Positions 4,645 through 63,640 of a DNA stretch of 64,000 nt are shown here, piece by piece (position 1 is the first letter of the stretch; the number at the start of each line of letters is the position of its first letter). The DNA is taken from the NCBI GenBank assembly GCA_017965425.1, contig JAGCPY010000089.1, positions 58,001 through 122,000 on the forward strand, in the 5' to 3' direction. The position numbers were made by a program, and so were the translations under genes. The notes beneath the pieces were generated by a model, which saw only the letters and a list, made by a program, of their open reading frames with translations, was not told the DNA's origin and ran no database searches. The DNA is from Bacteroidaceae bacterium (lineage in GTDB: Bacteria; Bacteroidota; Bacteroidia; Bacteroidales; Bacteroidaceae).

Positions 4645-4748
4645 AAGGTGTGCACGTTCAGCACGGAAGGGCAATACCTTCTCTGCTGAACGTGTACACT
4701 TTTTTGCAAGAAGGTGTGCACGTTCGCGAGGGAACGTGCACACTTTCC
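4645..4748. repeat. 22-bp periodic repeat array, 5 units (family B, site 1)
   Basis: Five units start at 4645, 4667, 4689, 4711 and 4733, exactly 22 bases apart. Each has a 15-base conserved part close to AASGTNNANACSTTC and about 7 variable bases. The conserved part is a near-palindrome. The array fills the gap between two convergent 3' ends (DUF5606 and the sialidase). Confidence 0.85.
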
Positions 4749-4775
4749 ATCTCTGTGGTGAGTGCCTGGGGGCTT

Positions 4776-6035
4776 CTACTTGTACTTCCCGCCGGTGATC
4801 TCGCTGATGGTGAGGGGGCGGTAGGCCATATTGTAGCCGTTGTCTTTCTGTTCCTCCTCCCAGAAGAATGCGATGCGGCGGTCCTTCTGCTGAATCATTG
4901 TGGAGTATGCCGACGTGGTGTGGCTCACTTGCAGTCCTCGCGTCCACTGGTGTGCGAATGCGCGTGGCGAGTAGATGCCGTTCGGCAGGATTTCCTTATA
5001 GTAGATGCCGACGTCCTTGCGGCCTTCGCCGAAGGGCAGCGACTGCAACATCAGCTTGACGGCCCGTCCGCTGGCCACCTCCTTGGCATCCACGAGCAGG
5101 ATCTCGCCGTTGCACGAGTTGGCGCCGACCTTGATGCCCCCTTCGATGTCATGGCTGGCCACACATTGTCCCCACGTGCCCTGCTCCTGGTTGGAACGGA
5201 TGTCGTTGAAGTGGAAGACGTTGAAGAAGCGGCCATACCACTTGCGGGAGGAGAGGATGACGTCGCCGTTAGGCAGTTCCTCGGTCTTTGGCTCGTCGCC
5301 GTCGATGCAGGGGCTGTCGTGCCCGTCGAGGGTGGAGCCTCCCAGGACGGCCCACGTCTGTCCGAAGTCGTCGCTGTAGAGGACATAGTTGCAGGCCACG
5401 TCCTTGTCGTCCATCTGCGTGCGCGTCAGCACCGAGCAGTAGAGCCGGTAGAAGGTTCCTTTCTTCACGACGCGGCTCTGCATGATGCGCCCCGACCCGA
5501 TGAACATGGTGCGGGTGTTGGGCAACATTTGGTAGAAAGCGTCGGTGACATCCTCGGCCTTCGTCCACGAGCGTCCGCCATCGGTGCTCCGCCAACGGGC
5601 GATGCGGTTGGGGTTCGCGCGCGTACCTTTAATATATATAACGTTTCCCGTGACCGACATGCAGAGGATGTTGTCGGAGTTTCTGTCGGCGACGAGGGCC
5701 ACGTCTCCGTATCCGCAGTCGGTTGAGCCTTCGATGCCCGAGCCACGTTGGATGACGGTGTCGGGCGACCATGTGCGTCCGTTGTTTTTGCTCATACGTG
5801 CCGCAATGTCGATTTTGCCGAAACCGATGTCGAGCTGGCAGTAGCGGCGGTCAACGACGGCCAGGAGGTGTCCCTTGCGTGTCGTCGCGATGGCTGGGAT
5901 GCGGTAGGGAACACGGTAACTGTCGTAGGTTTGGAAGAGCACTTGTGCGGGTGCACCGTCCTTGACGGAGGCCGCAGAGGTGGCTGCCGTGAACGCGGGC
6001 AGCATCACCAAAAGGGAGAGAAGCAGCTGTTTCAT
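4776..6035 (-). CDS. Secreted sialidase (GH33, BNR/Asp-box)
   Basis: 419 residues from MKQLLLSLLVMLPAFTAATS, a signal peptide probably cleaved near ATSA-AS. The YRVPYRIPAIA segment is the sialidase RIP motif carrying the first carboxylate-binding Arg. Three Asp-box motifs follow (SKNNGRTW, STDGGRSW, SDDFGQTW), marking a six-bladed propeller. The family removes terminal sialic acids from host or dietary glycans in the periplasm or outside the cell. No C-terminal sorting domain is seen. A longer frame up to 6104 is rejected because the promoter lies inside it. There is no nan operon or SusCD pair nearby. Very short 5' leader. Confidence 0.85.
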   Translation of the reverse strand: MKQLLLSLLVMLPAFTAATSAASVKDGAPAQVLFQTYDSYRVPYRIPAIATTRKGHLLAVVDRRYCQLDIGFGKIDIAARMSKNNGRTWSPDTVIQRGSGIEGSTDCGYGDVALVADRNSDNILCMSVTGNVIYIKGTRANPNRIARWRSTDGGRSWTKAEDVTDAFYQMLPNTRTMFIGSGRIMQSRVVKKGTFYRLYCSVLTRTQMDDKDVACNYVLYSDDFGQTWAVLGGSTLDGHDSPCIDGDEPKTEELPNGDVILSSRKWYGRFFNVFHFNDIRSNQEQGTWGQCVASHDIEGGIKVGANSCNGEILLVDAKEVASGRAVKLMLQSLPFGEGRKDVGIYYKEILPNGIYSPRAFAHQWTRGLQVSHTTSAYSTMIQQKDRRIAFFWEEEQKDNGYNMAYRPLTISEITGGKYK

Positions 6036-6040
6036 GGCCA

Positions 6041-6048
6041 CAAAGATA
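6041..6048 (-). promoter_or_regulatory. -7 promoter element of the sialidase gene
   Basis: TATCTTTG on the minus strand ends only 5 bases before the ATG at 6035, so the transcript should be almost leaderless. Confidence 0.65.
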
Positions 6049-6173
6049 CAAAGTTCTGGCAAATCGGCGCAAAAGAGTGGCCATAATTTTCTCTGTGTGT
6101 ACATATTTGAATCAATTCATCTTTACTTTTAGTTAATAATGTTAAAACGTTAAACGAAAACCTCTTTTTGTGT

Positions 6174-6204
6174 TTGCACATACAGACACGAACCACTACC
6201 TTTG
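6174..6204 (+). promoter_or_regulatory. Promoter of rprX-rprY
   Basis: TTG (6174-6176) and TACCTTTG (6197-6204) separated by 20 bases, a good match to the Bacteroidota consensus. The ATG follows at 6234. Confidence 0.75.
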
Positions 6205-6233
6205 CCCGCAGAAACCCCATCACGAAGCACTCG

Positions 6234-7763
6234 ATGAAAAGAACAACCATCGGAATCATTAGCCTCATCATCGGCATATCTTTCTTCGGATTGCTCTTCC
6301 TGCAAGGCCGCATCGTCAAGGCGATGGTCAAGATGCGCAAGGAGCAGTTCGACGAAAGCGTGTTCCGTGCGTTGGACCAAACCAGCCGTGACATGGAACG
6401 CAACGAGACGTTCCGCTATCTGGAAATGGTGGCCGAGCAGACCGGCTTTGAGGCCGACAACCTGGCCGACCCGTCGTGGAAGCAACAGGTGGAAGAGACC
6501 CTCGAGCTGGGCGACAGCCTCTATCAGATCACGCCTTTCCGTCTGAAGACCCAGGTGAAGCACCCTTCGCAGATGCCCAAGGCCCTCGCGCTGAGGCCCA
6601 CTTCGTCCCTCGACATCGCCAGCCAGAGATTCCAGGAATTTGTCAGAAACGCCTACCTCTATCAGAAAGGCGTCCTCGACGAAGTCATCTACACCATCCT
6701 CTACAACGCCAGTGACAAGGACTTCCGCGAGCGCATGGATTTCCGCCTGCTCGACTCCAACCTGCGTGCCGAGCTCGAAGCCGGGGGCATCAACCTCGAC
6801 TATCATTTCACCGTAGCGGACGCATACGGCGTCGAGGTCTTCCGCTGCGACGACTATGACCCCGAAGGCTCTGACCACAGCTACACGCAGACGCTCTTCC
6901 GCAACGATCCGTCCCAGAAGATGGGAACGCTTCGCATCCACTTCCCCGAGCTGGACACCTACATCCTTGGAGTGGTGCGCATGATGATTCCCTCGCTCAT
7001 CTTCACCCTCGTCCTCTTCATTACCTTCTGCTTCACCGTCTGGCTCATTGTCCGCCAGAAGCGCGACACCGAGATGAAGAACGACTTCATCAATAACATG
7101 ACCCACGAGTTCAAGACCCCCATCTCCAGCATATCACTGGCCGCTCAGATGTTGGGCGACAACACCATCACCAAATCCCCGACGATGATCGACAACCTCT
7201 CCCACGTCATTGTCAACGAGACCAAACGCCTCCGCTATCAAGTCGAGAAGGTCCTGCAGATGTCGCTCTACGAGAAAGGCAACATACGCTTCAACGAGAA
7301 AGAGATTGACGCCAACGCCGTCATCGACGACGTCGTCCGCACCTTCACCTTGAAGGTGCAGCAGAATGGCGGGCAGCTCATCTCGCACCTCGACGCCGAA
7401 GACGCCGCCATCTATGTGGACGAGATGCACTTCACCAACGTCATCTTCAACCTCCTCGACAACGCCGTCAAGTACCGGCGTGAAAACGAACCCCTGCGGT
7501 TGGCCGTCACCACCGCCACACAGGGCTCCACGCTCGTCGTCACCGTGCAAGACAACGGCATCGGCATCCGTCACGACGACCTCCGACGCATCTTCGACCG
7601 ATTCTATCGCGTCCATACGGGCAACAAGCACGATGTGAAGGGATTCGGCCTCGGCCTCGCCTATGTGAAAGGAATGATAGAGCTCATGCACGGCAGCATT
7701 AAAGCCGAGAGCGAGCTCGGGCAAGGCACGAAGTTCACCATCATCTTGCCGCTCATCGACTGA
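6234..7763 (+). CDS. rprX: Sensor histidine kinase, RprX-like
   Basis: 509 residues. TM1 is at about 8-26 (GIISLIIGISFFGLLFLQG), a roughly 220-residue extracytoplasmic sensor region follows, and TM2 at about 250-275 ends in VWLIVRQ. The H-box NNMTHEFKTPISS carries phospho-acceptor His291. The N-box FNLLDNAVKY, G1 DNGIGIRHDD, F-box FDRFYR and G2 GFGLGLAYVKG are all present, so the kinase looks active. No HAMP domain is obvious. The ATG at 6234 is chosen because the promoter TACCTTTG lies just upstream. The partner regulator is 79 bases downstream. The symbol is by resemblance to Bacteroides RprX; the signal sensed is unknown. Confidence 0.85.
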   Translation: MKRTTIGIISLIIGISFFGLLFLQGRIVKAMVKMRKEQFDESVFRALDQTSRDMERNETFRYLEMVAEQTGFEADNLADPSWKQQVEETLELGDSLYQITPFRLKTQVKHPSQMPKALALRPTSSLDIASQRFQEFVRNAYLYQKGVLDEVIYTILYNASDKDFRERMDFRLLDSNLRAELEAGGINLDYHFTVADAYGVEVFRCDDYDPEGSDHSYTQTLFRNDPSQKMGTLRIHFPELDTYILGVVRMMIPSLIFTLVLFITFCFTVWLIVRQKRDTEMKNDFINNMTHEFKTPISSISLAAQMLGDNTITKSPTMIDNLSHVIVNETKRLRYQVEKVLQMSLYEKGNIRFNEKEIDANAVIDDVVRTFTLKVQQNGGQLISHLDAEDAAIYVDEMHFTNVIFNLLDNAVKYRRENEPLRLAVTTATQGSTLVVTVQDNGIGIRHDDLRRIFDRFYRVHTGNKHDVKGFGLGLAYVKGMIELMHGSIKAESELGQGTKFTIILPLID

Positions 7764-7842
7764 CAAGCGTCAAACTCCTGAGACTCATAAAAACCATAAG
7801 CCCCCTAAAACTTATTATCCAACCCTTAAAATACGAACGACT

Positions 7843-8553
7843 ATGACACAAGAAAAAGCCAAACTGAGAATCCTCCTTTGCGAGGACGATGAGAGCCTCG
7901 GAATGCTCTTGCGTGAATATTTGCAGGCTAAAGGCTACGACGCTGACCTGCAGCCCGATGGAGAAGCCGGTTACAAGGCTTTCCTGAAAAACCCCTATGA
8001 CATGTGCGTGCTCGATGTGATGATGCCCAAGATGGATGGCTTCTCTCTCGCCACTGAGATTCGGCAGGTCAATCAAGACATTCCCATCATCTTCCTCACG
8101 GCCAAGAACCTCAAGGAAGACATCTTCGACGGCTTCAAGCTTGGAGCAGACGACTACATCACAAAACCTTTCTCAATGGAGGAACTCGTCCTGAGAATGG
8201 AAGCCATTCTCCGTCGCGTCCACGGGAAACAAACCAAGACCGTCTCCGTCTATCATATCGGCAAGTTCACTTTCGACACCAAGCGCCAGATTCTGAGCAT
8301 CGGAGACCAGCAGACCAAACTCACCACCAAGGAGAGCGAGCTGCTCATCCTCCTGTGTGCACACGCTAATGAGGTGCTTCAACGCGAACTCGCCCTGAAG
8401 ACCATCTGGATCGACGACAACTATTTCAACGCACGGTCGATGGATGTTTACATTACCAAGTTGCGTAAACACCTCAAGGACGACCCCGACATCGAAATCA
8501 ACAATGTCCACGGCAAGGGCTACCGGCTCATTGCACAGATGGAGGAAGAATGA
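7843..8553 (+). CDS. rprY: Response regulator, OmpR family, RprY-like
   Basis: 236 residues. The receiver domain (about 8-125) has the acidic pair in LLCEDDES, phospho-acceptor Asp58 in VLDVMMPKMDG, Thr/Ala in FLTAKN and Lys in ITKPFS. The C-terminal winged helix (about 140-235) contains LTTKESELLILLCAHANEVL and RSMDVYITKLRKHL, typical of OmpR/PhoB DNA-binding domains. It is co-oriented with the kinase and presumably phosphorylated by it. In Bacteroidales RprY has been linked to stress and sodium or oxidative responses; targets here cannot be read from the sequence. Confidence 0.9.
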   Translation: MTQEKAKLRILLCEDDESLGMLLREYLQAKGYDADLQPDGEAGYKAFLKNPYDMCVLDVMMPKMDGFSLATEIRQVNQDIPIIFLTAKNLKEDIFDGFKLGADDYITKPFSMEELVLRMEAILRRVHGKQTKTVSVYHIGKFTFDTKRQILSIGDQQTKLTTKESELLILLCAHANEVLQRELALKTIWIDDNYFNARSMDVYITKLRKHLKDDPDIEINNVHGKGYRLIAQMEEE

Positions 8554-8569
8554 AACACACCCATAAAGA

Positions 8570-8597
8570 AAAGGCCGCGCATCGCGCGGCCTTTTCT
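8570..8597. terminator. Bidirectional intrinsic terminator
   Basis: A GC-rich palindrome (AAAAGGCCGCGC, 4-base loop, GCGCGGCCTTTT) with A- and T-runs on either side. It lies between the convergent 3' ends of rprY and the 58-residue membrane protein gene and can serve both. Confidence 0.9.
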
Positions 8598-8601
8598 TGT
8601 G

Positions 8602-8778
8602 TCATGCTTCGTACTTGGGTTTCTTATAATTGACGTACATGTGAAGACAGATGCCGCCAATCACCAACAGAATGGCCAGACCCTGAACAATGTTGTAGTC
8701 AACCCAGTCCAATAAATAGCTCATAATCAGCAAGAGCGCGCCCACCAAGGCGACAATGATACCAGAATAAAGTTTCAT
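8602..8778 (-). CDS. Small two-helix membrane protein (58 aa)
   Basis: The translation starts MKLYSGIIVALVGALLLIMS. It has two hydrophobic helices (about residues 5-22 and 31-47) separated by YLLDWVDYNIVQ, and ends in a basic tail YVNYKKPKYEA. Hydrophobic two-helix proteins of this size occur in Bacteroidota genomes as conserved hypotheticals; no function is known to me. The ATG is preceded by an AT-rich stretch without a clear TAnnTTTG. It shares the bidirectional terminator with rprY. Confidence 0.65.
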   Translation of the reverse strand: MKLYSGIIVALVGALLLIMSYLLDWVDYNIVQGLAILLVIGGICLHMYVNYKKPKYEA

Positions 8779-8942
8779 TTTTATGATAGTTTTTGTTTAG
8801 ATATTGCCTCTTTTAGGTATGAAAAGCTCACATTGACAGCACAAATTAAGGAAAAAAACTTCATTCACCGAAACATTTTGCCAAAAAAGTGTCAGCAGGG
8901 CCATTTTTTTCCCTTCTCGGCAAGAAAAACACCCCTAAAGCC

Positions 8943-8972
8943 TTGTCACGTCAGAAAAAAGTGCTACCTTTG
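8943..8972 (+). promoter_or_regulatory. Promoter of the rpsF-rpsR-rplI operon
   Basis: TTG at 8943-8945, 19-base spacer, TACCTTTG at 8965-8972: a near-perfect Bacteroidota promoter. A roughly 40-base leader precedes rpsF. Confidence 0.85.
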
Positions 8973-9018
8973 CACCGCATTTTTGCAAAAACATCTTTTA
9001 ATAACCAATTAACGTATT

Positions 9019-9360
9019 ATGAATCAGTACGAAACCGTTTTCATTTTAACTCCCGTTTTATCTGACGATCAGATGAAGGAAGCGGTCGAAAAGTTCAAGA
9101 ATATTCTCACCGAAGGAGGTGCAGAGATTCTGAACGAAGAGCTCTGGGGTTTGAAGAAGCTCGCTTACCCCATTGAGAAGAAGTCCACGGGCTTCTACGC
9201 TTTGCTGGAGTTTAAGGCCGATCCCACGCTCATCAGCAAGCTCGAAGTGAACTATCGCCGTGACGAGAGAGTGCTCCGCTATCTGACTGTCAAGATGGAG
9301 AAGTATGCAGCAGAATATGCTGAAAAGAGAAGAAACAAAAAAGCTAAAAAGGAGGACTAA
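9019..9360 (+). CDS. rpsF: 30S ribosomal protein S6
   Basis: 113 residues beginning [20 protein letters not shown], the classic S6 start, with [20 protein letters not shown] and [19 protein letters not shown]. It ends in a basic tail ([12 protein letters not shown]). S6 forms a heterodimer with S18 on the 30S platform. The operon order rpsF-rpsR-rplI without ssb between S6 and S18 is usual in Bacteroidota. Confidence 0.97.
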
Positions 9361-9364
9361 CATT

Positions 9365-9628
9365 ATGGCACAATCAGAAATCCGCTATCTCACACCGCCT
9401 ACCGTTGACGTTAAGAAGAAAAAGTATTGCCGTTTCAAGAAGCTCGGCATTAAGTATATCGATTATAAGGATCCCGAATTCCTCAAGAAGTTCCTTAATG
9501 AACAGGGTAAGATTCTGCCCCGTCGCATTACCGGCACTTCCCTCAAGTATCAGCGCCGTGTCGCACAGGCTGTCAAGCGTGCACGTCACCTCGCTTTGCT
9601 GCCCTTCGTAACCGATATGATGAAATAA
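9365..9628 (+). CDS. rpsR: 30S ribosomal protein S18
   Basis: 87 residues from [14 protein letters not shown], 4 bases after the rpsF stop. Contains [19 protein letters not shown] and [20 protein letters not shown], the conserved S18 core that contacts 16S rRNA and S6. A longer upstream frame overlaps rpsF and is rejected. Confidence 0.97.
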
Positions 9629-9650
9629 TAATTAAAGAGGAATAAGCACT

Positions 9651-10187
9651 ATGGAAATCATTCTGAAAGAAGATGTTATCGGCTTGGGCTACAAGCACGA
9701 CATCGTGAACGTGAAGAGCGGCTATGGTCGCAACTATCTTATTCCCCAGGGCAAGGGCGTCATCGCATCTGAGAGTGCCAAGAAGCAGCTTGCCGAAGAG
9801 CTCCGTCAAAAGGCTAAGAAGCTCGAGAAGATCAAGAATGACGCACAGGCTATCGCCGACAAGCTCGAAGGCGTTGCCCTGACCATCGAAGCCAAGGTGA
9901 GCAACACCGGCACCATCTATGGCAGCGTCAACAGCGTAATGATTGCCGACGAACTCAGCAAGCTCGGTTTCGACATCGACCGCAAGCTCATCACCATCAA
10001 GGATGTGAAGACTGTTGGAGAGCACAAGGCCGTCGTCCGCCTTCACAAGGAAATCAGCGTGGCCATCCCCGTTACCGTCATCAGCGATGCTCCCGTGGCT
10101 GCGCCCGTAGAGGCTGCACCTGCTCCCGCTCCTGCACCCGCAGAGAATGCAGATGTTGAAGACGAAGATCCAGAAGAAGAGGCGTAA
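9651..10187 (+). CDS. rplI: 50S ribosomal protein L9 with acidic tail
   Basis: 178 residues. The N-terminal rRNA-binding domain has MEIILKEDVIGLGYKHDIVN, GYGRNYLIPQGKGV, then the long connecting helix and the C-terminal domain. L9 is usually about 150 residues. Here roughly 30 extra residues form an Ala/Pro-rich then strongly acidic tail (PAENADVEDEDPEEEA). Such tails occur in some Bacteroidales L9 proteins; their purpose is not known. The gene is followed by a strong terminator. Confidence 0.96.
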   Translation: MEIILKEDVIGLGYKHDIVNVKSGYGRNYLIPQGKGVIASESAKKQLAEELRQKAKKLEKIKNDAQAIADKLEGVALTIEAKVSNTGTIYGSVNSVMIADELSKLGFDIDRKLITIKDVKTVGEHKAVVRLHKEISVAIPVTVISDAPVAAPVEAAPAPAPAPAENADVEDEDPEEEA

Positions 10188-10222
10188 TCATTTGTAACAT
10201 ACAGACGTAGAACTGCATACGT

Positions 10223-10257
10223 AAAAGCCGTGACTCCGAGTGGGTCACGGCTTTTTC
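10223..10257 (+). terminator. Terminator of the rpsF operon
   Basis: AAAAGCCGTGAC paired with GTCACGGCTTTTT; the stem is followed by a T-run. Confidence 0.9.
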
Positions 10258-10318
10258 TTGTTTCGTCTATCTGCAATTGCACTTCAACCTTAGGATGATG
10301 CTGGTTAGGTGCAGACAA

Positions 10319-10352
10319 AAAAGAGAAGGACTTCACGTGAGTGAAGTCCTTC
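10319..10352 (-). terminator. Terminator of the small lipoprotein gene
   Basis: Read on the minus strand, a perfect 12-bp stem (GAAGGACTTCAC with its complement, 4-base loop) is followed by TCTTTTTT, a good intrinsic terminator about 50 bases after the stop. Confidence 0.85.
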
Positions 10353-10404
10353 CGCTGTTGTTTCCTGTTGATGTTCGAGCAGGAGATGGCTCTGCTGTCT
10401 TGAA

Positions 10405-13183: not shown

Positions 13184-13289
13184 CCTCAATCCCTCACCAT
13201 CCCTCACCAATCCCTCACCAATCCCTCACCTGCAAACGGCTTGTTCACAGCTAATTAGTGGTGATGGTGAGGGATTGAGGCTTTTTTTT
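13184..13289 (+). repeat. Half copy of the CCCTCACC composite repeat (family A), terminator-like
   Basis: CCTCAATCCCTCACC (13184-13198) and its perfect complement GGTGAGGGATTGAGG (13266-13280) form a 15-bp stem. Inside the left arm, CCCTCACC recurs four times about 10-11 bases apart. The right arm is followed by CTTTTTTTT, so this copy can act as the terminator of mtaB and the glycosyltransferase. Confidence 0.85.
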
Positions 13290-13356
13290 GAAAAAACAGG
13301 TGTAGAGGACGTGGTTGCTGTATTTTCTCGCAGGAATGTTTTGTGTCGATGCTGTG

Positions 13357-13420
13357 AACGTTAATACCTTCCGTGCAGAACGTCAATACCTTTCAGGCAG
13401 AACGTCTATACGTTACTCAG
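13357..13420. repeat. 22-bp periodic repeat array, 3 units (family B, site 2)
   Basis: AACGT starts at 13357, 13379 and 13401, exactly 22 bases apart; the third unit is slightly degenerate at its end. It lies in the 378-base gap between co-directional genes, downstream of the family A half copy. The gap also holds the next gene's promoter. Confidence 0.8.
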
Positions 13421-29877: not shown

Positions 29878-30095
29878 GGGAAAAGAATTAAAAGAGAGAA
29901 AGGAATGGAGAAAAAAGAAAGAAAAGCGAGGAATAATGCAATAAATGCAATGTGATGATGTGTAACTGAATAATGATATTTGAAGATGGACGATGAGAAG
30001 AAACTGGTTTGACTCGATCTTTGTCAAATTGACACGTTCATCTCTGTTGGATCATTGCTATGAAGGACTCACACCCTCTGATTTTTCATAGAGAA

Positions 30096-30353
30096 CCCTC
30101 AATCCCTCACCTTTTGTGATAATCGTTTGAAGATAAGGTGCTTTGTGGTGAGGGATAGGTGAGGGATAGGTGAGGGATGGTGAGGGTTTTGAAAGGCTGA
30201 ATGATAGATTCCACAGGGGAAACCGGCGGACACAGTTGTGAAGTGTGGCGTGTATTGACAATCCCTCACCATCCCTCACCCATCCCTCACCAAAGTCTCA
30301 CCTGTAAATTGTTGAAAAATAAGTTGATAGGGTGGAAGGTGAGGGATTGAGGG
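30096..30353. repeat. Complete CCCTCACC composite palindrome (family A, copy 2)
   Basis: The left unit begins CCCTCAATCCCTCACC and returns as several GGTGAGGGAT blocks. A roughly 70-base core follows, then a right unit with repeated ATCCCTCACC blocks closed by GGTGAGGGATTGAGG at 30338-30352. The whole is a long nested inverted repeat. The core contains a copy of module C (30201-30260). Confidence 0.85.
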
Positions 30354-30429
30354 ATTTTGGAGGCAAAATAATAGATTCCGCAGGGGAAATCGGCGGACAC
30401 AGTGGTGAGACGCGACGTGTATTGACAAT
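30201..30429. repeat. Two copies of the ~60-bp module C
   Basis: 30201-30260 and 30368-30429 share ATAGATTCC, CAGGGGAAA, CGGCGGACACAG and GTGTATTGACAAT in the same order. One copy is the core of the family A element, the other follows it. A third, more diverged copy is at 48739-48801. Confidence 0.8.
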
Positions 30430-30437
30430 TTGTATGG

Positions 30438-30500
30438 AACGTATGTATCATTCGTGTGAAAGGTGCACACGTTCAAGGCCGAAGGCGAACACCTTCACGC
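30438..30500. repeat. 22-bp periodic repeat array, 3 units (family B, site 3)
   Basis: Units start at 30438, 30460 and 30482. The first is degenerate; the others fit AASGTNNANACSTTC. Confidence 0.75.
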
Positions 30501-40500: not shown

Positions 40501-40561
40501 GTGCTGGTTTTGACAAGGTCGGTTGAGCCTGTCAGACAGATTCAGTTCCTGTTTTTCCAGT

Positions 40562-40600
40562 AACGTGTACACCTTCTGCCGCGAACGTGTACACCTTCTG
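40562..40600. repeat. 22-bp periodic repeat array, 2 units (family B, site 4)
   Basis: Two units starting at 40562 and 40584 with identical first 15 bases, AACGTGTACACCTTC, the best matches to the consensus in the window. Confidence 0.8.
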
Positions 40601-40655
40601 CGCATATTGCCAGCTCACCGCTCGCCACTCCCTTTATACACTGTTTTTTGGCCAT

Positions 40656-40895
40656 CAATCCCTCAATCCCTCACCTTTCGAACTAACTGGTTGTTCTATA
40701 GTGTCTTACAGGTGAGACTTCGGTGAGGGATAGGTGAGGGATGGTGAGGGATTGGTAAAAAGACTGTATATCAGCGTTTTCTGTGCTCCCCTTAGAACAA
40801 TCCCTCACCATCCCTCACCTATTCCTCACCAATCCCTCACCATCAAACTTCTTTCTTTCAGGCGGTTATAGCATTCGGTGAGGGATTGAGGGATT
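40656..40895. repeat. Complete CCCTCACC composite palindrome (family A, copy 3)
   Basis: It begins CAATCCCTCAATCCCTCACC and ends GGTGAGGGATTGAGGGATT. The roughly 40-base core contains CAGCGTTTTCTGTGCT, which is the reverse complement of the core in copies 4 and 5. It fills much of the 608-base gap before clpB. Confidence 0.85.
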
Positions 40896-41012
40896 TTGGG
40901 TGGAAAATGATGGGAAGTGCGTATGACGGCAGAGAACTTTGTCACGAAAACGGCTATTGACAACAGCCGCGGCTTGTTTTGGTCGCCAGATGTAGCCAAA
41001 AAGTCAGAAGGT

Positions 41013-48383: not shown

Positions 48384-48491
48384 GAGAGCGAGTTCGACTG
48401 TTCAGGAGTCGTCTGAAGCCCTGATTCACAGGCCGATGCCGCTGTTTGTCGCCATTGGCCACTACTCTCTCCACATGTTTTTCCATAAAAT

Positions 48492-48724
48492 CCTTCAATC
48501 CCTCACCTTTCGCGATAATCGTCTGTAAGTAAGCGATTTGCTGGTGAGGGATTGGTGAGGAATAGGTGAGGGATGGTGAGGAATGTCTCGCAGGAAACAC
48601 AGAAAACGCAGAAATGCAGGCTTGCGAAGCAATCCCTCACCATCCCTCACCTATTCCTCACCAAAGTCTCACCCGTAAATCGTTGAGCAAAAGGCTGATA
48701 TGATAAAAGGTGAGGGATTGAGGG
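48492..48724. repeat. Complete CCCTCACC composite palindrome (family A, copy 4)
   Basis: Left end CTTCAATCCCTCACC, right end GGTGAGGGATTGAGG. The core contains TCGCAGGAAACACAGAAAACG, shared with copy 5. It lies between convergent msrA and the AlkD-like gene. Confidence 0.85.
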
Positions 48725-48738
48725 GTTTCGGGGCCTAA

Positions 48739-48801: not shown

Positions 48802-48809
48802 TTGCCTGG

Positions 48810-48890
48810 AAGGTCTATACGTTCTGCGTGGAAGGTACAGACCTTCCCGACTCATGGTGTGCATGTGAGTTCTCGCGGTCGTGGATGTGA
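48810..48890. repeat. 22-bp periodic repeat array, 2 clear and 2 degenerate units (family B, site 5)
   Basis: Clear units at 48810 and 48832; weaker ones at 48854 and 48876, keeping the 22-base register. Confidence 0.7.
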
Positions 48891-55358: not shown

Positions 55359-57839
55359 ATGAAAACGAAATTCATTTCTCTTTTGGGGCTTGCTGCCCTC
55401 ATGCTTTCAGGCTCTGACGTGTTCGCCCAACCCGTTGTGGACGTGGATGCTGCCCGTCTGGGTGCTGCCGTCAGCCCTCGCCTCTATGGCATCTTCTTCG
55501 AGGAAATCAATCATGCAGGCGACGGTGGTCTCTACGCCGAACTCGTCCAGAACCGCTCCTTCGAAGATGACGACCAACAGCCAGCCCACTGGACAACCTT
55601 CGGCGGAGCTTCTGCCAGAATCATCACACATGACCTGCTGAACGACCGCCAAGCTCACGCCTTGCAGCTTGTCCTCAACGCCGCAGGCGGAGGCGTGCAG
55701 AACGATGGATATTGGGGCATCAGCGTCCGGCAACAGACGACTTATACGTTTTCGGCTTGGGTGAAGTCTGAGGCCGCTTACAAAGGAGACCTCGTCGTAT
55801 CGCTGCACGGGCAGACAGGCAAGAACATCGGGCAGGCCGTCTTCGCACTGAAACTGAAACCTGGCAAGTGGACTCAAGTCAAAGACGTGGCCGTGCGGGC
55901 TACGGGCAGTGATCCTGAAGCCCATCTCAACTTGACCTTCATGGCTCCAGGCACGCTCAGCCTCGATGTCGTCAGCCTGTTTCCGCCCACTTACAAAGGC
56001 CGCCCCAACGGTTGCCGCATTGACCTGGCAGAGTTGCTCGAAGCACTGCACCCCAAGTTCATGCGTTTCCCCGGCGGCTGCTATGTGGAGGGACAGACGA
56101 CTCCCAAGAATCAGCTCCACAACCGCTTCCAATGGAAAAACACCATTGGTCCGATCGAGGAGCGTCCCGGACATTTGAGTGTCAACTGGGGCTACAATAT
56201 CACTGACGGCTTTGGTTATCACGAGATGCTGCAACTGTCTGAAGACCTGGGCGCAGAGCCTTTGTTCGTCGTCAATGTCGGATTGGGACATGGCTGGTTG
56301 CAGCCGTATGACCAGCTCGACGAGTACATCCAGGAAGCCCTCGACGCCATTGAGTATGCCAACGGCCCCGTCACTTCCAAGTGGGGTGCCGTCCGTGCCA
56401 AGAACGGGCATCCTGAACCCTTTGGGCTGAGGTTGCTGGAAGTCGGCAATGAGAACGCCAATTTCCATTTCGACAACAATTCTGACCAGAGCGACCACTA
56501 CTTCGAACGCTACATCCAATTCTATAAGGCCATCAAGGCAAAATATCCAGACGTGGAAATCATTGGCAACGTTGAATCGTGGGGAACAGACGAACCCTCG
56601 TGGCGCAGCCAGCATCCCGTGGACATCCTCGACGAACACTACTACCGCTCGCCGTCTTGGTTCGAGAACAATTTCCACAAGTACGACAGCTACAGCCGTC
56701 AAGGGCCGAAGATCTATATCGGCGAATATGCCGTCACACAGGGATTCGGCATCAATGGCCACCTCACTGCCGCTTTGGGCGAAGCCGTTTATATGATGGG
56801 CTTGGAACGCAATTCCGACATCGTCGTCATGGGCAGCTATGCTCCTATCTTCGTCAACGAACACAACCCTGCATGGCGACCTGACATGATTCGCTTCAAC
56901 GCCAGCCAGAGCTTTGGCACGCCTTCCTATCACGTCCAGAAAGTGATGGCTGACAACGTTGGTACTCGCGTGGTTCCAGTCACGGTCAAGGATAACATGC
57001 TGGCTCCCAGTATCGGACACCGTATGGGATTCACCACTTGGGGCACCAGTGCAGAGTTCCGGCATCTGGAGGTTAAGGATGCGAAGGGGAAGGTCTTGAT
57101 AGACCGACTGGTTGCTGAGGAGGAATCCACCCAACCCCTGCCTTGGAAAGCGGGTAAAGGCGGAGCCGACTGGAAGTTCGACAATGGCGTGCTTCGGCAG
57201 AAGAGCCGCCGCGCAGAGGGTTCCGTCTTGCTCCATACTGCCGACCTCGGTGAAGAATACACAATCCGCCTCCAAGCCCGCCGCCTGGAAGGTCGAGAGG
57301 GTTTCATCATTTGCTTTGGTGCCACCGACGAGGAGAATTTGCTTTGGTGGAACCTCGGCGGTTGGGGTAACTCGCAACATGCAATCGAATACATGGCCGA
57401 CGGCGGCAAGAACACCCTGGCCGCCTGTCCCGGAAGCCTCGAAGAAGGACGCTGGTACGACGTGATGATTGAAGTGAAAGGCACTTCTGCACGTTGCTCG
57501 CTCGACGGCAAGCTTATCCACGAGTTCTCCCTGCCTGAGCGTCAGAGTCTCTACGCCAACGCCACCTTCGACGAACCGACTGGCGAACTCATCGTGAAGC
57601 TTGTCAATCCCACCAGCGTCGCGCAGACCGCACACATCAACGTCAACGGAAAGCGTTTGGCGGCCAATGGCCATGCCATCGTCCTCGCTTCGGAAAAGGG
57701 CAGCGACGAGAATACCATGCGTCAGCAGCTCAAAGTCGCTCCAGTCGATTTCCGTGTTCCTGTGGAAGCTGGTGCCAGCAACTTCGACTATCCCGCCCAG
57801 CCCTTCTCGCTCAACATTCTTCGCCTGAAGATGCAATAG
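55359..57839 (+). CDS. Alpha-L-arabinofuranosidase, GH51
   Basis: 826 residues. Signal peptide ending DVFAQ. Typical start SPRLYGIFFEEINHAGDGGLYAEL, then a CBM4-like insert (about 85-200), barrel motifs KFMRFPGGCYVEG, acid/base Glu in LEVGNENANF and nucleophile in IYIGEYAVTQGF. Residues about 590-720 form a LamG/DUF1080-like domain (WKFDNGVLRQKS, ARCSLDGKLIHEF) inserted in the C-terminal beta region. It releases arabinose from arabinoxylan or arabinan, probably in the periplasm. No SusCD genes nearby. Confidence 0.93.
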   Translation: MKTKFISLLGLAALMLSGSDVFAQPVVDVDAARLGAAVSPRLYGIFFEEINHAGDGGLYAELVQNRSFEDDDQQPAHWTTFGGASARIITHDLLNDRQAHALQLVLNAAGGGVQNDGYWGISVRQQTTYTFSAWVKSEAAYKGDLVVSLHGQTGKNIGQAVFALKLKPGKWTQVKDVAVRATGSDPEAHLNLTFMAPGTLSLDVVSLFPPTYKGRPNGCRIDLAELLEALHPKFMRFPGGCYVEGQTTPKNQLHNRFQWKNTIGPIEERPGHLSVNWGYNITDGFGYHEMLQLSEDLGAEPLFVVNVGLGHGWLQPYDQLDEYIQEALDAIEYANGPVTSKWGAVRAKNGHPEPFGLRLLEVGNENANFHFDNNSDQSDHYFERYIQFYKAIKAKYPDVEIIGNVESWGTDEPSWRSQHPVDILDEHYYRSPSWFENNFHKYDSYSRQGPKIYIGEYAVTQGFGINGHLTAALGEAVYMMGLERNSDIVVMGSYAPIFVNEHNPAWRPDMIRFNASQSFGTPSYHVQKVMADNVGTRVVPVTVKDNMLAPSIGHRMGFTTWGTSAEFRHLEVKDAKGKVLIDRLVAEEESTQPLPWKAGKGGADWKFDNGVLRQKSRRAEGSVLLHTADLGEEYTIRLQARRLEGREGFIICFGATDEENLLWWNLGGWGNSQHAIEYMADGGKNTLAACPGSLEEGRWYDVMIEVKGTSARCSLDGKLIHEFSLPERQSLYANATFDEPTGELIVKLVNPTSVAQTAHINVNGKRLAANGHAIVLASEKGSDENTMRQQLKVAPVDFRVPVEAGASNFDYPAQPFSLNILRLKMQ

Positions 57840-57860: not shown

Positions 57861-57912
57861 ATATACGCGTGAAGCCCGGAACGTATTGACCTTCCGGGCT
57901 TCACGCGTATAT
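57861..57912. terminator. 21-bp perfect hairpin between convergent GH51 and S9 peptidase genes
   Basis: 57861-57881 pairs perfectly with 57892-57912 around a 10-base loop. This is the longest perfect stem in the window and probably stops transcription from both sides, although there is no T-run. It overlaps the first two units of a 22-bp array. Confidence 0.7.
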
Positions 57913-57957
57913 GTTCAGGCCATGACGTGTTCACGTTCCAGCCATCACGTATGGATG
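57880..57957. repeat. 22-bp periodic repeat array, 4 units (family B, site 6)
   Basis: Units in register at 57880, 57902, 57924 and 57946. The units are more diverged than elsewhere (CACGC, GACGT, CACGT in place of AACGT) but keep the exact 22-base spacing. Confidence 0.75.
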
Positions 57958-60447
57958 TTACAAGTCTTTGTCGGGGTACATCGACTGCCACCATGTTGGG
58001 TCATCCTGCAACCAGCGTGCAAACCAAGCCCAAATGGTTTGTTGCCAACGCAGCCGTTTCGTGTAGTCGATGATGTGGTGGTCTTGATCTTTCACCAGAA
58101 CCATTGCCGTGGGTCGTCCGAGCAGCTTCAGGGCCGTGTACATCTGTATGCTCTCTCCGACGGGCACGTTATGATCTGCATCGCCGTGGACGAACAGGAG
58201 GGGCGTGTGTATTTTGTCGGCATTGAAGAGCGGGCTTTGATCGACATAGAGATCCTTGCGCGTCCAGGGGTAGCTGTTGGCCATAGACACCTCGCTGTAG
58301 GTGTAGCCCCAGTAGCCTTCACCCCAGTAGCTGGTGTGGTCGCTGATGCCTGCGTGGCTGATGGCAGCGGCAAAGAGGTCGGTCTTTGTCTGTAGATATT
58401 GTGTCATGAAGCCACCGTAGCTGGCGCCGATGCATCCAATCTTCTTGTCGTTCACCCATTGATGGTCGGCGCAGAAAGCTTTCACGGCACCGATGATGTC
58501 CTCGGCCACGCCGTCGCCGGCTGTGTTCACGTGATGTGCAGCCCACGGCTGTCCGAAGCCTGTGGCACCTCGGGGATTCACGACAAGGACGACGTAACCC
58601 AGGGCGGCGTAAGCATGTTGTGGGTAGCGGGTCTCGAAATGTCGGCTCGTGGGTGAACAGCCTCCGTAGTAATTGACAATCATGGGATAGCGTTTCGACG
58701 CATCGAAATGAGGCGGCAGATAGTAGCGGCAGCAGATGCTGTCGCCCGTGGGATTGACAAAGGTATAAGGTTCGCAGCTTCCCAGTTCCACGTTCTTGAG
58801 GGTTTCGGCGCTGAGGTCTTCGAGAAGTCGAACGGCTGCATGGCCTTTCTTCTTGCCCTCTTTACTTTCTTTCTTCAGGTCGATGGAGTAGAGTCTGTCG
58901 CTGTTCGACGCGCCCTGTCCACAAAAAGCCAGCACGGGCGCATGAGAGGCCAGCGAGAAACGCAGCACCACTTCCTCTGGTATGTCGATGCGTCGGATGT
59001 CGCCTGTCTTCGGGTTGAGGCAGAACAGTCGGATGAAGTCCTTGTCTTCTGCCGTGAAGTAGATTTGTCCGTCGGCTGTGCTCCATTCCACAGCCCCCAC
59101 GCTGGGATTGAAGTTTCGGGTCAGGGCTTTTGCCTTGCCGGAGTCGATGTCCATGAGAAAAAGTTCACCTTCGGTCATGTTGGGTGTCTGCCCTTCCCGG
59201 ACGTTTTTGCCGATGCCGCCCAATGCCTCTGGCGACCCCTGCAGCAACACCTGGCGTCCGTCGGGTGAGAAGCAGGCGTTGTTCAGGAATCCTTCTCGGC
59301 TGACCAGCGTGTCCACCGCCATCGTCTGCATGTCAATCCTGAAGACCGACACGCCTTCCGTCGGACGTGCCCCCAGCTGGCTGCTCATGGCCGAGATCAA
59401 GGCGTAGCGCCCGTCTTGACTGAGGTCGTTGAGGTAGATGCTTGAATGTCCGAAGGTGAGCGGCTGCATCAGTCCTGTCCGCAGATCATAGACGGCCAGG
59501 CGCGAGCGTGTGCGCCAACCCGGTTGTCGGTCGTCGGGATGCATGACTTCGTAAACGTCTGGTCGCTCTTTCGGTCCTTCATCCTGCAAGGTGAAGACAA
59601 GGCGGTCTTCTGTCGGGGTCATGGAGAAATAGCCTTCGGGCAGGTCGCTGGCCAGCAAGGTTTCTGCTTGGGTCACAGGGTCGATGCAGCGCAGTTCGCG
59701 TCGGCCTGTACTGTTGTCGGTAAAGTAATAACGTGCTGTGCGTGGCATCCACGTGATGCCGTCGCGGTGATCGATGCAGCGTCCGGTGGCCACTTCACGC
59801 ACCTCTGTCCGGCTCTGCGTGGCACCGCCTGGTTTTGTTTGTGAAGTCCTTACCGTCAGCCATCGTCCGTCGGGTGACAGCGAAAGGCCGCCATAGCGAC
59901 GGGCATGGAGCACATCGTCCATCGTGTAGAGGCGTTTCCGTGTGTTGCCGTTGAGGTCGTCGAGCACGATTTGTCCTGCCGCCGAAGGCTTCAACGTGAC
60001 GCGCACGGAGTCCGTGCTTGTGGCGGTCGTCAGGGCTTTGATGATGACCTCGTGGGTAGCCGGTTGAAGCTCCACCTCCTGTCCGTTCGGGGTCACTTGT
60101 CCGTCCACGTACAGCTCGTGATGTTTAAGTCCTTCCACTTGGATGTTGGCTTTGGCATAGCTCGTGTTGGTGAAACTGAAGAAAAGAAGATGCAAGGCGG
60201 CTTCACCGTCTTTTGGCAAGATGGGCAGACTGAACAGTTTGCCTTCACGGGCTCTTTCCATCCGAAGCGGCGTCTTCAGCAGTTCCGCTTCTTCAAAATG
60301 CTTCCCGTAGGCATTGGTGCTGTCCAGCAGAGCAGGAACATGAAGAGCCATCGGCCCCATGTGGCGGAAAAGGGTGACGGGCAGTTCTTGGGCAGAGGCT
60401 CCGACGCTTGTCAGAAGCAAGCCTGTCGAGAGGATAAAAGTTTTCAT
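57958..60447 (-). CDS. Secreted S9-family prolyl oligopeptidase-like peptidase
   Basis: 829 residues from MKTFILSTGLLLTSVGASAQ, a signal peptide. An N-terminal extra domain (about 25-200) precedes a beta-propeller (RYGGLSLSPDGRWL, DLSQDGRYALIS, CFSPDGRQVLL). The alpha/beta hydrolase domain carries Ser in GCIGASYGGFMTQY, Asp in VHGDADHNVPVGE and His in DQDHHIID. Likely periplasmic dipeptidyl or oligopeptidase. The ATG at 60447 is preferred because a frame start at 60519 is upstream of the promoter. Confidence 0.92.
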   Translation of the reverse strand: MKTFILSTGLLLTSVGASAQELPVTLFRHMGPMALHVPALLDSTNAYGKHFEEAELLKTPLRMERAREGKLFSLPILPKDGEAALHLLFFSFTNTSYAKANIQVEGLKHHELYVDGQVTPNGQEVELQPATHEVIIKALTTATSTDSVRVTLKPSAAGQIVLDDLNGNTRKRLYTMDDVLHARRYGGLSLSPDGRWLTVRTSQTKPGGATQSRTEVREVATGRCIDHRDGITWMPRTARYYFTDNSTGRRELRCIDPVTQAETLLASDLPEGYFSMTPTEDRLVFTLQDEGPKERPDVYEVMHPDDRQPGWRTRSRLAVYDLRTGLMQPLTFGHSSIYLNDLSQDGRYALISAMSSQLGARPTEGVSVFRIDMQTMAVDTLVSREGFLNNACFSPDGRQVLLQGSPEALGGIGKNVREGQTPNMTEGELFLMDIDSGKAKALTRNFNPSVGAVEWSTADGQIYFTAEDKDFIRLFCLNPKTGDIRRIDIPEEVVLRFSLASHAPVLAFCGQGASNSDRLYSIDLKKESKEGKKKGHAAVRLLEDLSAETLKNVELGSCEPYTFVNPTGDSICCRYYLPPHFDASKRYPMIVNYYGGCSPTSRHFETRYPQHAYAALGYVVLVVNPRGATGFGQPWAAHHVNTAGDGVAEDIIGAVKAFCADHQWVNDKKIGCIGASYGGFMTQYLQTKTDLFAAAISHAGISDHTSYWGEGYWGYTYSEVSMANSYPWTRKDLYVDQSPLFNADKIHTPLLFVHGDADHNVPVGESIQMYTALKLLGRPTAMVLVKDQDHHIIDYTKRLRWQQTIWAWFARWLQDDPTWWQSMYPDKDL

Positions 60448-60476
60448 TTTTCTTTTTGTTAGTGACATTTCGGCCA

Positions 60477-60484
60477 CAAAGATA
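60477..60484 (-). promoter_or_regulatory. -7 promoter element of the S9 peptidase gene
   Basis: TATCTTTG on the minus strand, 29 bases upstream of the ATG at 60447. Confidence 0.7.
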
Positions 60485-60547
60485 GCGAAAAAGTGACGTT
60501 TTTCTACATTTGTTCTCATTTTATTTTGTATTCCAACGCAAATACCC

Positions 60548-60555
60548 TACTTTTG
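60548..60555 (+). promoter_or_regulatory. -7 promoter element of the P-type ATPase gene
   Basis: TACTTTTG, only 10 bases before the ATG at 60566, giving a very short leader. Confidence 0.65.
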
Positions 60556-60565
60556 CCACCCATAG

Positions 60566-63232
60566 ATGAAAACAGGTCTCACACAAGCCGAAGTACTGGC
60601 CTCGCGCATGGCGCACGGGGCTAACGTGCTCACTCCTCGTGAGCGCACTCCGTGGTGGCGAAAGTTTGCCGACAAATTCACCGATCCGCTCATCGTTATC
60701 TTGCTGGTTGCTGCCGTGCTCTCTATCGGCATCTCCTGTTATGAATATTTCAGCCTCGACGCTCCTGCCACCGCCTTCTTTGAACCCGTCGGCATTGTCG
60801 TGGCCATCGCTCTTGCCACGGGGCTGGCGTTCTGGTTCGAGCAAAAGGCAGACCAGGAGTTCACGCTTCTCAACCAGCAGAACGAACACGAACCTGTCCG
60901 TGTCATCCGTGATGCGCACGAGACCCTCGTTCCGCGAAGCGAAATCGTCGTGGGCGACCTTGTCCTGCTGTCCACGGGCGACGAGATTCCCGCCGATGGT
61001 CAACTTCTTGAAGCCACGCATATTCAGGTGGACGAATCAACCCTTACCGGAGAACCCGTCTGCCATAAGGGCATTCTGCCAGAAGAGCAAGACCCCAATG
61101 CCACCTTCCCCACCGACATGGTTCTTCGCGGCACCAAGCTCCTCGAAGGTCACGGACTCATGCGTGTCACCGCTGTCGGCGATGCCACCGAGGCGGGTCA
61201 CGTCTGCACCGAGGCACAGATTGATTCGTCTGTCCGTACGCCTTTGAACGAACAGCTCGACCGCCTCGGACTGCTCATCTCGCGTGCCAGCTATGCCATC
61301 GCCGCCCTCGTCGTCGTGGGTCGCATCGTCATGTGGGTGCATGATGCTTCTTTCTCGACCTTGTCCTCGTCCTCTTCCCCGTCGTTGTCTTCTCTTTTGA
61401 CGTTAGACTTTCTCGTCTATCTGCTCCAGTCGGTGATGTTGGCCGTGACCCTCATCGTCGTTGCCGTGCCCGAAGGGTTGCCGATGGCGGTCACGTTGTC
61501 GTTGGCTTATTCGATGCGTCGGATGCTCAAGACGGGCAACCTTGTCCGCCGTATGCACGCCTGTGAGACGATGGGTGCCACGACCGTCATCTGCAACGAC
61601 AAGACCGGCACGCTCACGCAGAACCAAATGCGCGTCGTGGAGGTTCGGAGGTCAGGCGAAGAGGCGACGGTGGCCATGAACATCGCCGTCAACAGCACGG
61701 CCTCGCTGGATGGCGACCGCGTGCTGGGCAATCCCACGGAGGGCGCTCTTCTGCTTTGGCTTCGCGAACAGGGGAGGGACTACAGCTCGCTTCGCGCTAC
61801 GGCACACGTCACTGAGGAAATCCCGTTCACGACAGAACGAAAGTACATGGCCACACGCATCGACGACACCTTATATATTAAAGGTGCACCGGAAATCGTC
61901 TTGGAAATGTGCCACCGCTCCTTCGGCACCCCCGCCTCCCGCCCGTCCCTTGAGGGAGATGGTCATCTTCTTCTCTCTTGGCAACAACGTGGCCTTCGGA
62001 CGTTGGCTTTGGCACATGCCGAGGGCAGCGCCACGCCCACTTTGGATGCCCTCGTGGCCATTGCAGATCCTGTGAGAAGCGATGTTCCGCCTGCTGTTCA
62101 AGAGTGCCTCCGTGCGGGCATTGACGTCAAGATTGTCACGGGCGACACACCGGCTACAGCCTTGGAGATTGCACGCCAGATTGGGCTCATGGACGCTACC
62201 CCCGCCCTCTCTGTTGTCAGGGAGGGAGCGGTCACTCGTGACGCTGGGGAGAAGACCTCCAATCTGATACATCCAGCTTCCTCACAGACAGGGAGTGAGG
62301 GGGGAGACTCTCTAATCCTCACGGGTCCGGAGGTGGCAGCTCTCACAGATGAGGAGCTGCGTGCCAAGGCACGTGACATCGTCCTCATTGCCCGTGCGCG
62401 ACCGACAGACAAAAAGCGTTTGGTGGAAGCCTTGCAGGCTTGTGGCGAAGTCGTTGCCGTGACGGGTGACGGCACGAACGACGCGCCCGCCCTTCATGCT
62501 GCCCACGTAGGCCTTTCGATGGGCAGCGGAACCGCCGTGGCGAAAGAAGCCTCCGACATTACCATTCTTGACGATTCCTTTGCCAGCATCGGACGCGCGG
62601 TGATGTGGGGACGTTCTCTCTATCGCAACATCCAGCGCTTCATCCTTTTCCAAATGACGGTGAACGTTTGTGCGTGCCTCACGGTTCTTGCTGGCGCCTT
62701 CATGGGCACCGATGCACCTTTGACCGTGACGCAAATGCTCTGGGTGAACCTTATCATGGACACTTTTGCTGCGATGGCACTTGCGTCGTTGCCTCCGACG
62801 GCTGCCGTGATGCGCGAGCGTCCACGCGACCGTCGCAAGTTCATCATTTCCACGCCGATGTGGCATTTCATCTTGCTTGTGGGCGGGCTGTTCTTTGTGC
62901 TGATGACAGCCCTTCTGTGGTACTTCGAGCGCGACGGTCACATCAGCGCCCACGACCAAAGTGCCTTCTTCACTCTTTTCGTGATGCTGCAGTTCTGGAA
63001 CCTTTTCAACGCGCGTGCTTTCCTGACAGGTCACAGCGCTTTCAACCTTCGACATTGCCGCGAGTTCCTGTTCATCGCAAGCCTCATCTTTTTCGGACAA
63101 ATCCTCATCGTTCAATTTGGTGGTCAGATGTTCAATGTGCTTCCTTTGGACATATCTACTTGGCTGACCATCATCGTTGTAACGTCTCCAGTTCTTCTTG
63201 TTGGAGAGTGTATCAGAATGTTGAAGCGCTGA
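60566..63232 (+). CDS. Calcium-transporting P-type ATPase (P2-type)
   Basis: 888 residues. N-terminal cation ATPase region, actuator motif STLTGEPVCHKG, TM4 VTLIVVAVPEGLPMAV, and phosphorylation site CNDKTGTLTQ with Asp345, then KGAPEIV, VTGDTPATALEIARQIG and VAVTGDGTNDAPAL. VNLIMDTFAAMALAS on TM6 fits Ca2+ ATPases of the PMCA class. Three Ser/Gly-rich stretches (about residues 262-275, 455-465 and 552-581) look like in-frame insertions, the last within the P domain. It probably exports Ca2+. Promoter very close to the start. Confidence 0.9.
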   Translation: MKTGLTQAEVLASRMAHGANVLTPRERTPWWRKFADKFTDPLIVILLVAAVLSIGISCYEYFSLDAPATAFFEPVGIVVAIALATGLAFWFEQKADQEFTLLNQQNEHEPVRVIRDAHETLVPRSEIVVGDLVLLSTGDEIPADGQLLEATHIQVDESTLTGEPVCHKGILPEEQDPNATFPTDMVLRGTKLLEGHGLMRVTAVGDATEAGHVCTEAQIDSSVRTPLNEQLDRLGLLISRASYAIAALVVVGRIVMWVHDASFSTLSSSSSPSLSSLLTLDFLVYLLQSVMLAVTLIVVAVPEGLPMAVTLSLAYSMRRMLKTGNLVRRMHACETMGATTVICNDKTGTLTQNQMRVVEVRRSGEEATVAMNIAVNSTASLDGDRVLGNPTEGALLLWLREQGRDYSSLRATAHVTEEIPFTTERKYMATRIDDTLYIKGAPEIVLEMCHRSFGTPASRPSLEGDGHLLLSWQQRGLRTLALAHAEGSATPTLDALVAIADPVRSDVPPAVQECLRAGIDVKIVTGDTPATALEIARQIGLMDATPALSVVREGAVTRDAGEKTSNLIHPASSQTGSEGGDSLILTGPEVAALTDEELRAKARDIVLIARARPTDKKRLVEALQACGEVVAVTGDGTNDAPALHAAHVGLSMGSGTAVAKEASDITILDDSFASIGRAVMWGRSLYRNIQRFILFQMTVNVCACLTVLAGAFMGTDAPLTVTQMLWVNLIMDTFAAMALASLPPTAAVMRERPRDRRKFIISTPMWHFILLVGGLFFVLMTALLWYFERDGHISAHDQSAFFTLFVMLQFWNLFNARAFLTGHSAFNLRHCREFLFIASLIFFGQILIVQFGGQMFNVLPLDISTWLTIIVVTSPVLLVGECIRMLKR

Positions 63233-63263
63233 CCCCTCTTCACCCTATTTTTTTCAGGGAAAA

Positions 63264-63497
63264 CCCTCAATCCCTCACCTTTTGCCCTATTGGCCTATTG
63301 TTCAATGATTTATCGGTGAGGGATTGGTGAGGGAATGGTGAGGGATGGTGAGGAATGTATCGCAGAAAGCACAGAAAACGCTGAAAGTCAGCCTTATGCA
63401 TCAATCCCTCACCATCCCTCACCATTCCCTCACCAATCCCTCACCAATAATCGGCTGTTCTTTAATGGCTTACGTAAAGAGGTGAGGGATTGAGGGA
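63264..63497. repeat. Complete CCCTCACC composite palindrome (family A, copy 5)
   Basis: Begins CCCTCAATCCCTCACC and ends GGTGAGGGATTGAGGG. The core TATCGCAGAAAGCACAGAAAA matches copy 4 and, inverted, copy 3. It lies between convergent genes. Confidence 0.85.
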
Positions 63498-63556
63498 TTT
63501 TTCGGGAAAAAGCCATGGTAAGAGGTGTGGTGAGCGGCGGATTGTGGTTCAGACGG

Positions 63557-63640
63557 AACGCATAGACATCAAAGCAGAAGGTGTACACCTTCGACCTCGA
63601 ACGTCTATACCTTCTGCCTTGAATGTGTAGATCTTCTGTG
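63557..63640. repeat. 22-bp periodic repeat array, 4 units (family B, site 7)
   Basis: Units at 63557, 63578, 63600 and 63622. The unit at 63578 reads AAGGTGTACACCTTC, a perfect palindrome apart from the last base. Confidence 0.8.

Follow-up and report, generated by a model that had tools for sequence, protein, structure and literature searches.

Tandem arrays of a 16-bp near-palindrome, repeated at a pitch of 22 bp, are spread through the intergenic DNA of this Bacteroidaceae genome, whose bearer is a relative of rumen Prevotella-like species. The reading that we favour, at a probability of roughly 0.4, is that the arrays are phased sites for a predicted DNA-binding protein that acts as a dimer and differs in specificity from one species to another, and that MITE-like elements have settled beside them. 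The observations behind it are the pitch, the conserved arms of the unit, its directionality, the location of the arrays, the species-specific words and the association of the arrays with a second repeat made of short boxes.

The window, which is the whole stretch of 64,000 nucleotides that was analysed, holds seven sites at which GAASGTNNNNACSTTC is repeated at a 22-bp pitch. The units were scored as matches out of 12 to this consensus, and the arrays were listed without a strand. At 4644..4747, five units scoring at least 10/12 take up the greater part of a 144-bp gap between convergent genes. Three units each are found at 13356..13415, at 30437..30496, where the first one is weak (9/12), and at 63577..63636, which has a weak unit ahead of it at 63556, shifted from the register by one base. 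The array at 40561..40598 has two units, and the one at 48809..48868 has two strong units and a weak one (7/12). At 57879..57960, strong units start at 57879 and 57923 and weak units (8/12) at 57901 and 57945. This array lies between the 3' ends of the convergent ORFs 55359-57839 (+) and 57958-60519 (-), and its last weak unit runs 3 bp into the end of the second ORF. All seven arrays named in a preliminary description of the window were present within about 1 base of the positions given there; its 15-base word begins one base into the 16-base unit used here. Over the seven sites, 24 units were chained at 7/12 or better, 19 of which score at least 10/12.

With at most 2 mismatches, 38 matches were counted in the window where 2.9 were expected, and none of 100 shuffles reached 38. 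Sites scoring at least 10/12 against GAASGTNNNNACSTTC numbered 36, compared with 8.2 in Markov sequence, and 11 pairs lay exactly 22 bp apart, compared with none in 20 Markov simulations. The 22-base spacing was also enriched genome-wide. The organism's own genome (3.73 Mb in 96 contigs, 95% complete) holds 48 copies of the exact double unit and no match to a control pattern read backwards. Exact single units gave 194 matches (control 3), and double units with at most 3 mismatches gave 265 (control 0). A 464-kb sample, made up of the window and 20 own-genome stretches of 20 kb each picked for an exact double unit, contained 46 arrays. Among the nearest-neighbour spacings of up to 60 bp in the window and the 400 kb of own genome, 70 of 77 were exactly 22. 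That the arrays are a product of chance or a coding artefact is scarcely credible. The shuffles and the control count speak against chance; coding had been excluded earlier because 22 is not a multiple of the codon length, and a single array out of 46 has its midpoint within a predicted gene. No point in support of this explanation was found, and it was rejected.

The anatomy of the unit was derived from the 119 units scoring at least 10/12. At the non-S positions the arms agree with the consensus at 88-100%, a figure that is inflated because the units were selected at 10/12 or better, and in the six spacer columns the agreement drops to 39-50%. Consecutive spacers are barely alike, with 2.24 of 6 bases identical compared with 1.88 after shuffling, showing that the arms were kept while the spacers decayed and that the units are old relative to the spacers. 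Recent amplification could account for part of the arm conservation. Positions 4 and 13, the S positions, are mostly C or G and exchangeable, and the centre of the unit leans to GTAC. The preliminary description had taken the two C/G positions to vary independently of each other, which is not the case, as the same letter stands at both in 77 of 110 units. Base pairing is therefore broken and the unit is directional. When one unit was drawn per array, 69% of the S positions were mismatched if paired, where 49% were expected. The earlier statement that RNA pairing is not strictly kept can thus be sharpened: the S positions avoid pairing. Among the arrays with at least 2 asymmetric units, 21 of 25 point one way. 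Since the units within an array share ancestry, the directionality and the same-letter S pairs may be partly inherited. Relative to the genes in tandem contexts, 12 arrays run one way and 6 the other with 2 ties, and there is no strong strand bias.

The position of the arrays was compared with the gene ends given by a simple home-made caller (300 genes, 78% coding), which missed some genes. Of the arrays, 44 could be placed between two genes, 18 of them convergent, 19 tandem and 7 divergent. The remaining two of the 46 have a midpoint in a called gene and a place at the edge of a stretch, respectively. Convergent gaps are enriched, holding 18 of the 44 placed arrays compared with 17% of the intergenic length (p 1.5e-4), and in eight convergent gaps (74-154 bp) the array takes up most of the space.

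This siting at 3' ends would suit bidirectional transcription terminators or 3'-end mRNA hairpins, in which neighbouring units would form a 16-bp stem with a 6-nt loop. On either strand the arrays do fold better than dinucleotide-shuffled sequence (mean z -4.1 and -3.7, 46 arrays), and some contain near-perfect long hairpins, for example at L022 5401 and at 4644 in the window, where a T run is present. In addition, two relatives (L101, L109) have an ordinary hairpin at an orthologous 3' end where the own genome and another relative (L107) carry arrays. However, the S positions avoid pairing, and the sequences flanking one unit or a pair of units are no more complementary than shuffles (1.73 vs 1.91 and 1.93 vs 1.86 of 6, respectively). 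A U-tract was found at 5 of the 46 arrays, compared with 17% of control intergenic positions, the array at 4644 being an individual exception to the missing pattern of hairpin and U-tract. Terminators do not require a fixed 22-bp pitch, and seven of the placed arrays have divergent neighbours. Rfam models at gathering scores gave no match in the window. The arrays resemble intrinsic terminators as inverted repeats after genes that are able to fold, but they favour mismatches, rarely have U-tracts, and keep a fixed pitch with as many as 5 strong units in the window. Intrinsic termination as the main function is disfavoured by the rare U-tracts and the S mismatches despite the strong folding, and we regard the terminator or hairpin explanation as conceivable but unlikely. 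The combination of conserved, directional and helically phased arms with spacers that have decayed speaks for a sequence-specific protein more than for an RNA structure.

Short intergenic palindromes in high copy also call to mind REP/BIME repeats that are mobilised by a RAYT (Y1) transposase. The intergenic and 3'-end position, the palindromes, the species-specific words and the stem mismatch are as in some REPs described in PMC3733652. Only two Y1_Tnp (PF01797) matches were found in the 95% complete genome. The intact gene (L129:1402-1857, G000:C21, minus strand) encodes 151 amino acids with YIKNQEEHH, and it has GCCC-rich palindromes and ends of the AAGTTTCGGA type on its flanks. About 260 bp upstream of it lie a box element and a 22-bp array, which we read as chance proximity. 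Its protein (DHVH, YIKNQEEHH) resembles the non-REP subclass 1.2 in the tabulated part of PMC6006769. The second copy (L130:1435-1950) is degenerate, without the stretch of the YIKNQEEHH region, and its 3.2-kb locus contains no array or box element. No class-2 RAYT gene flanked by the repeat was found in the own genome (95% complete). Unlike REPs, the arrays have no fixed tag beside the palindrome, with at most 0.32 bits in columns -5 to 0 and 17 to 22 (119 units), and they are strict 22-bp direct tandems, not alternating ones, as seen in the 21 of 25 arrays that are pure in direction. Membership in the REP/RAYT family is therefore very improbable and was rejected on the Y1 search and on the comparison with PMC3733652 and PMC6006769. 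REPs are reported as targets for the insertion of IS elements in PMC1525189.

Five of the window's arrays adjoin an inverted-repeat element. The element at 13187..13308, with 11-bp boxes ATCCCTCACC / GGTGAGGGAT, and the array at 13356 are some 50 bp apart. The others, at 30075..30368, 40638..40911, 48465..48728 and 63241..63528, adjoin the arrays at 30437, 40561, 48809 and 63577, respectively, and none was given a strand. The array at 40561 is on the opposite side of its element compared with the other four. The boxes ATCCCTCACC / GGTGAGGGAT follow each other at a pitch of 10-11 bp and build complementary arms of about 35 bp around a variable centre, and the ends are A/T-rich. In the 464 kb, 187 of 198 boxes are within 800 bp of an array, although such DNA makes up 16% of the sample, and the other 11 are scattered singles. 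At least 3 boxes are near 22 of the 46 arrays, and each of the 22 elements listed in the own genome has one array within 150 bp. The idea of a mobile repeat in the preliminary description is thus partly supported, by the 22 arrays that adjoin a MITE-like element; the other 24 have fewer than 3 boxes near. Few boxes lie apart from an array in the DNA examined, so the arrays are probably places at which box elements insert or are tolerated. The tie suggests that the arrays are settling sites of the box elements, or that both form one composite.

The association was also seen in relatives. Four of four stretches of G361 and G363, which have the same boxes, had been chosen only by boxes and hold a 22-bp array of the word GTCTCACNNGTGAGAC, which is inside the box element in two (G361 L202, G363 L203) and about 170 and 580 bp away in the other two. 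G379 has other boxes (AATCTACTGCA) and another array word; in its 25 loci, chosen by array, boxes occur within 700 bp of 13 of 25 arrays, and 57 of 63 boxes have an array within that distance. At L032:6670-7386 some 500 bp of unrelated DNA, part of it duplicated internally, occupy the centre of a box element. CGCGCGCG-type tracts were noted near the outer ends of box elements in L020, L021 and L029 and in the G379/G371 loci L059-L063.

These elements raise the question whether the arrays are themselves internal minisatellites of a MITE-like mobile element, like that of BrickBuilt in Porphyromonas gingivalis, the arrays without boxes being remnants. The close association in three lineages, the symmetric ends and the variable centres, including the one in L032, are consistent with this, as are G379 and G371, where the array is inside dispersed repeats of about 450-730 bp. 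Against it stand the 24 of 46 own arrays with fewer than 3 boxes near and a gap and side that vary by species. In the own genome the array is outside the element and not enclosed by a leader and tail ending in inverted repeats, but it is enclosed in L202, L203 and the G379 loci. Moreover, the array word changes while the boxes are unchanged. According to PMC4596501, BrickBuilt is an intergenic inverted-repeat element whose tandem array has a period of 23 nt, close to two helical turns, and it shares near-identical ends with MITEPgRS, the arrays of the two (23 and 41 nt) being unrelated. In the same text the full-length BrickBuilt matched only P. gingivalis in the authors' BLAST, and 22-nt tandem repeats of P. 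gingivalis are mentioned there without sequence or places. BrickBuilt/MITEPgRS and the present system both join an intergenic inverted-repeat element to a tandem array near two helical turns, but here the 22-bp unit is palindromic, the arrays are often without a flanking element, the pitch is family-wide and the words change. That the arrays belong to such a composite element is doubtful.

The preliminary description had proposed a search for the motif in relatives. The motif itself was absent there but for a few near-matches, whereas the 22-bp architecture was present in several. The exact double unit was absent from 300 other genomes sampled from the family and from a collection of named genomes, from which near records were possibly left out, and none was found in viral contigs. 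With at most 3 mismatches it occurred in 5 of 138 genus relatives, with 2-5 matches each. The near-matches of G314, G320, G381 and G405 have the same 16+6 layout with other arms. The two of G333 look like chance, and one stretch fetched from that genome (L047) had no array. In G379 the reversed control had 16 matches, which were in fact arrays repeating a STTCCANNNNTGGAAS-like word every 22 bp; those in G371 were likewise 22-bp arrays of a word other than GAASGTNNNNACSTTC, and the single reversed-control matches in G310 and G110 were a two-unit repeat of yet another word. G362 also had a single match of this control. A 22-bp two-unit repeat is within a 1,098-bp stretch that is 99.8% identical between L064:1738-2835 and L066:9492-10589 (G110/G310); the identity is 72% and 93% in two aligned stretches close by, and the 1,098-bp stretch was perhaps transferred recently. 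A dense cluster of several families of palindromes at 22-bp spacing, with ACAGATTTC-type boxes at a pitch of about 11 bp, was observed in G381 (L043:10000-11100).

The pitch was then counted as self-similarity per lag in relatives' DNA sampled without the motif, leaving out L034-L038, L047, L067, L068 and L071, which had been fetched for a single unit or a near-match. In the genus, 17 regions of lag 22 were found in 519 kb, 14 of them in 362 kb of arbitrary stretches, and in 20 other genera of the family 12 regions were found in 351 kb. Lag 22 is the commonest non-codon lag in this family sample; lags 20, 23, 25 and 26 gave 0-2 regions each, and in the genus lags 14, 28, 35 and 44 were also raised (11, 8, 6 and 7 regions). 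Outside the family, lag 22 was found twice in 340 kb of other families of the class and not in 318 kb of other phylum members. The only clear one of the two is a 22-bp array of AAACCTGCTCAGGTTT at L133:10563-10688. Two alphaproteobacterial records (L182:6021, L184:586) share in-register palindromes, TTTCCATATATGGAAA and another one 22 bp on, possibly an unrelated case.

Dyad symmetry reached a permutation p of at most 0.05 in 8 of 29 lag-22 regions of the relatives, hardly above lag 21 (5 of 24) and lag 18 (3 of 15), with 0-2 such regions at the remaining tested lags. The palindromic character in relatives is therefore carried by single examples, of which L074, L081, L080 and L048 are clear. 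Mixed words sharing one register were seen in L042, L107, L173 and L193. A test of unlike palindromes keeping the 22-bp register was negative, with 1 pair at 22 in the relatives, so these mixed arrays remain anecdotes; a single homodimer does not readily explain them. The change of the word with the pitch kept favours selection on the geometry, or an inherited period that is hard for tandem arrays to change.

One orthologous site was followed in the window, downstream of the gene 57958-60519 (-), whose product is read as a putative P-type ATPase. The own genome has an array there, and 3 of 29 relatives' loci scanned show a lag-22 region. In L107 (G110) other palindromes are directly 3' of the stop codon, in L102 (G235) the region is about 620 bp further on, and in L118 it is upstream of the gene. 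L101 and L109 are the two loci with an ordinary hairpin after the stop. The window's 853-aa protein is 70% identical to its best full-length relative. A 257-aa piece in G363 (C19:3005-3775) is 91% identical to it and another G363 piece 62%, and G363 may be mixed or carry a transferred fragment.

Phased palindromes for a cooperatively bound dimer, as proposed in the preliminary description, are still the best fit to these data. A sequence-specific DNA-binding protein would bind each 16-bp near-palindrome as a dimer. With sites every 22 bp, or two helical turns, successive dimers would be on the same face of the DNA and could touch, which would allow cooperative binding. The arrays mostly lie shortly after genes and in convergent gaps, and the word that is bound would differ by species at a constant pitch. 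The MITE-like elements of 11-bp boxes, which adjoin about half of the arrays, would then find spots for insertion or tolerance that the arrays probably mark, possibly by targeting. Plasmid iterons are likewise tandem binding sites of about 22 bp phased by two turns; the arrays described here, however, are spread over the chromosome at many loci and not confined to one replication origin. A more speculative extension of the dimer reading, which we hold to be rather unlikely, is a two-part intergenic addressing system. Here a species-specific dimer would coat the 22-bp arrays after genes, and the box elements would be steered there as to a safe haven. The array word and the box word would each turn over because the protein and its sites co-evolve, and the geometry would be kept, namely the 22-bp array, the inverted boxes and the 11-bp box pitch of the own genome.

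In the literature searched, 22-bp palindromic arrays were not described for Bacteroidaceae. Taken together, the arrays look like a fast-changing DNA-binding or repeat system. The co-occurrence of boxes and arrays lends itself to studies of the places in a genome at which mobile DNA settles. A spacing that recurs across the family while the sequence is replaced from species to species speaks for selection on helical geometry and for a DNA-binding protein that evolves fast. If this is true, it would account for a component that recurs in the intergenic DNA of such bacteria.
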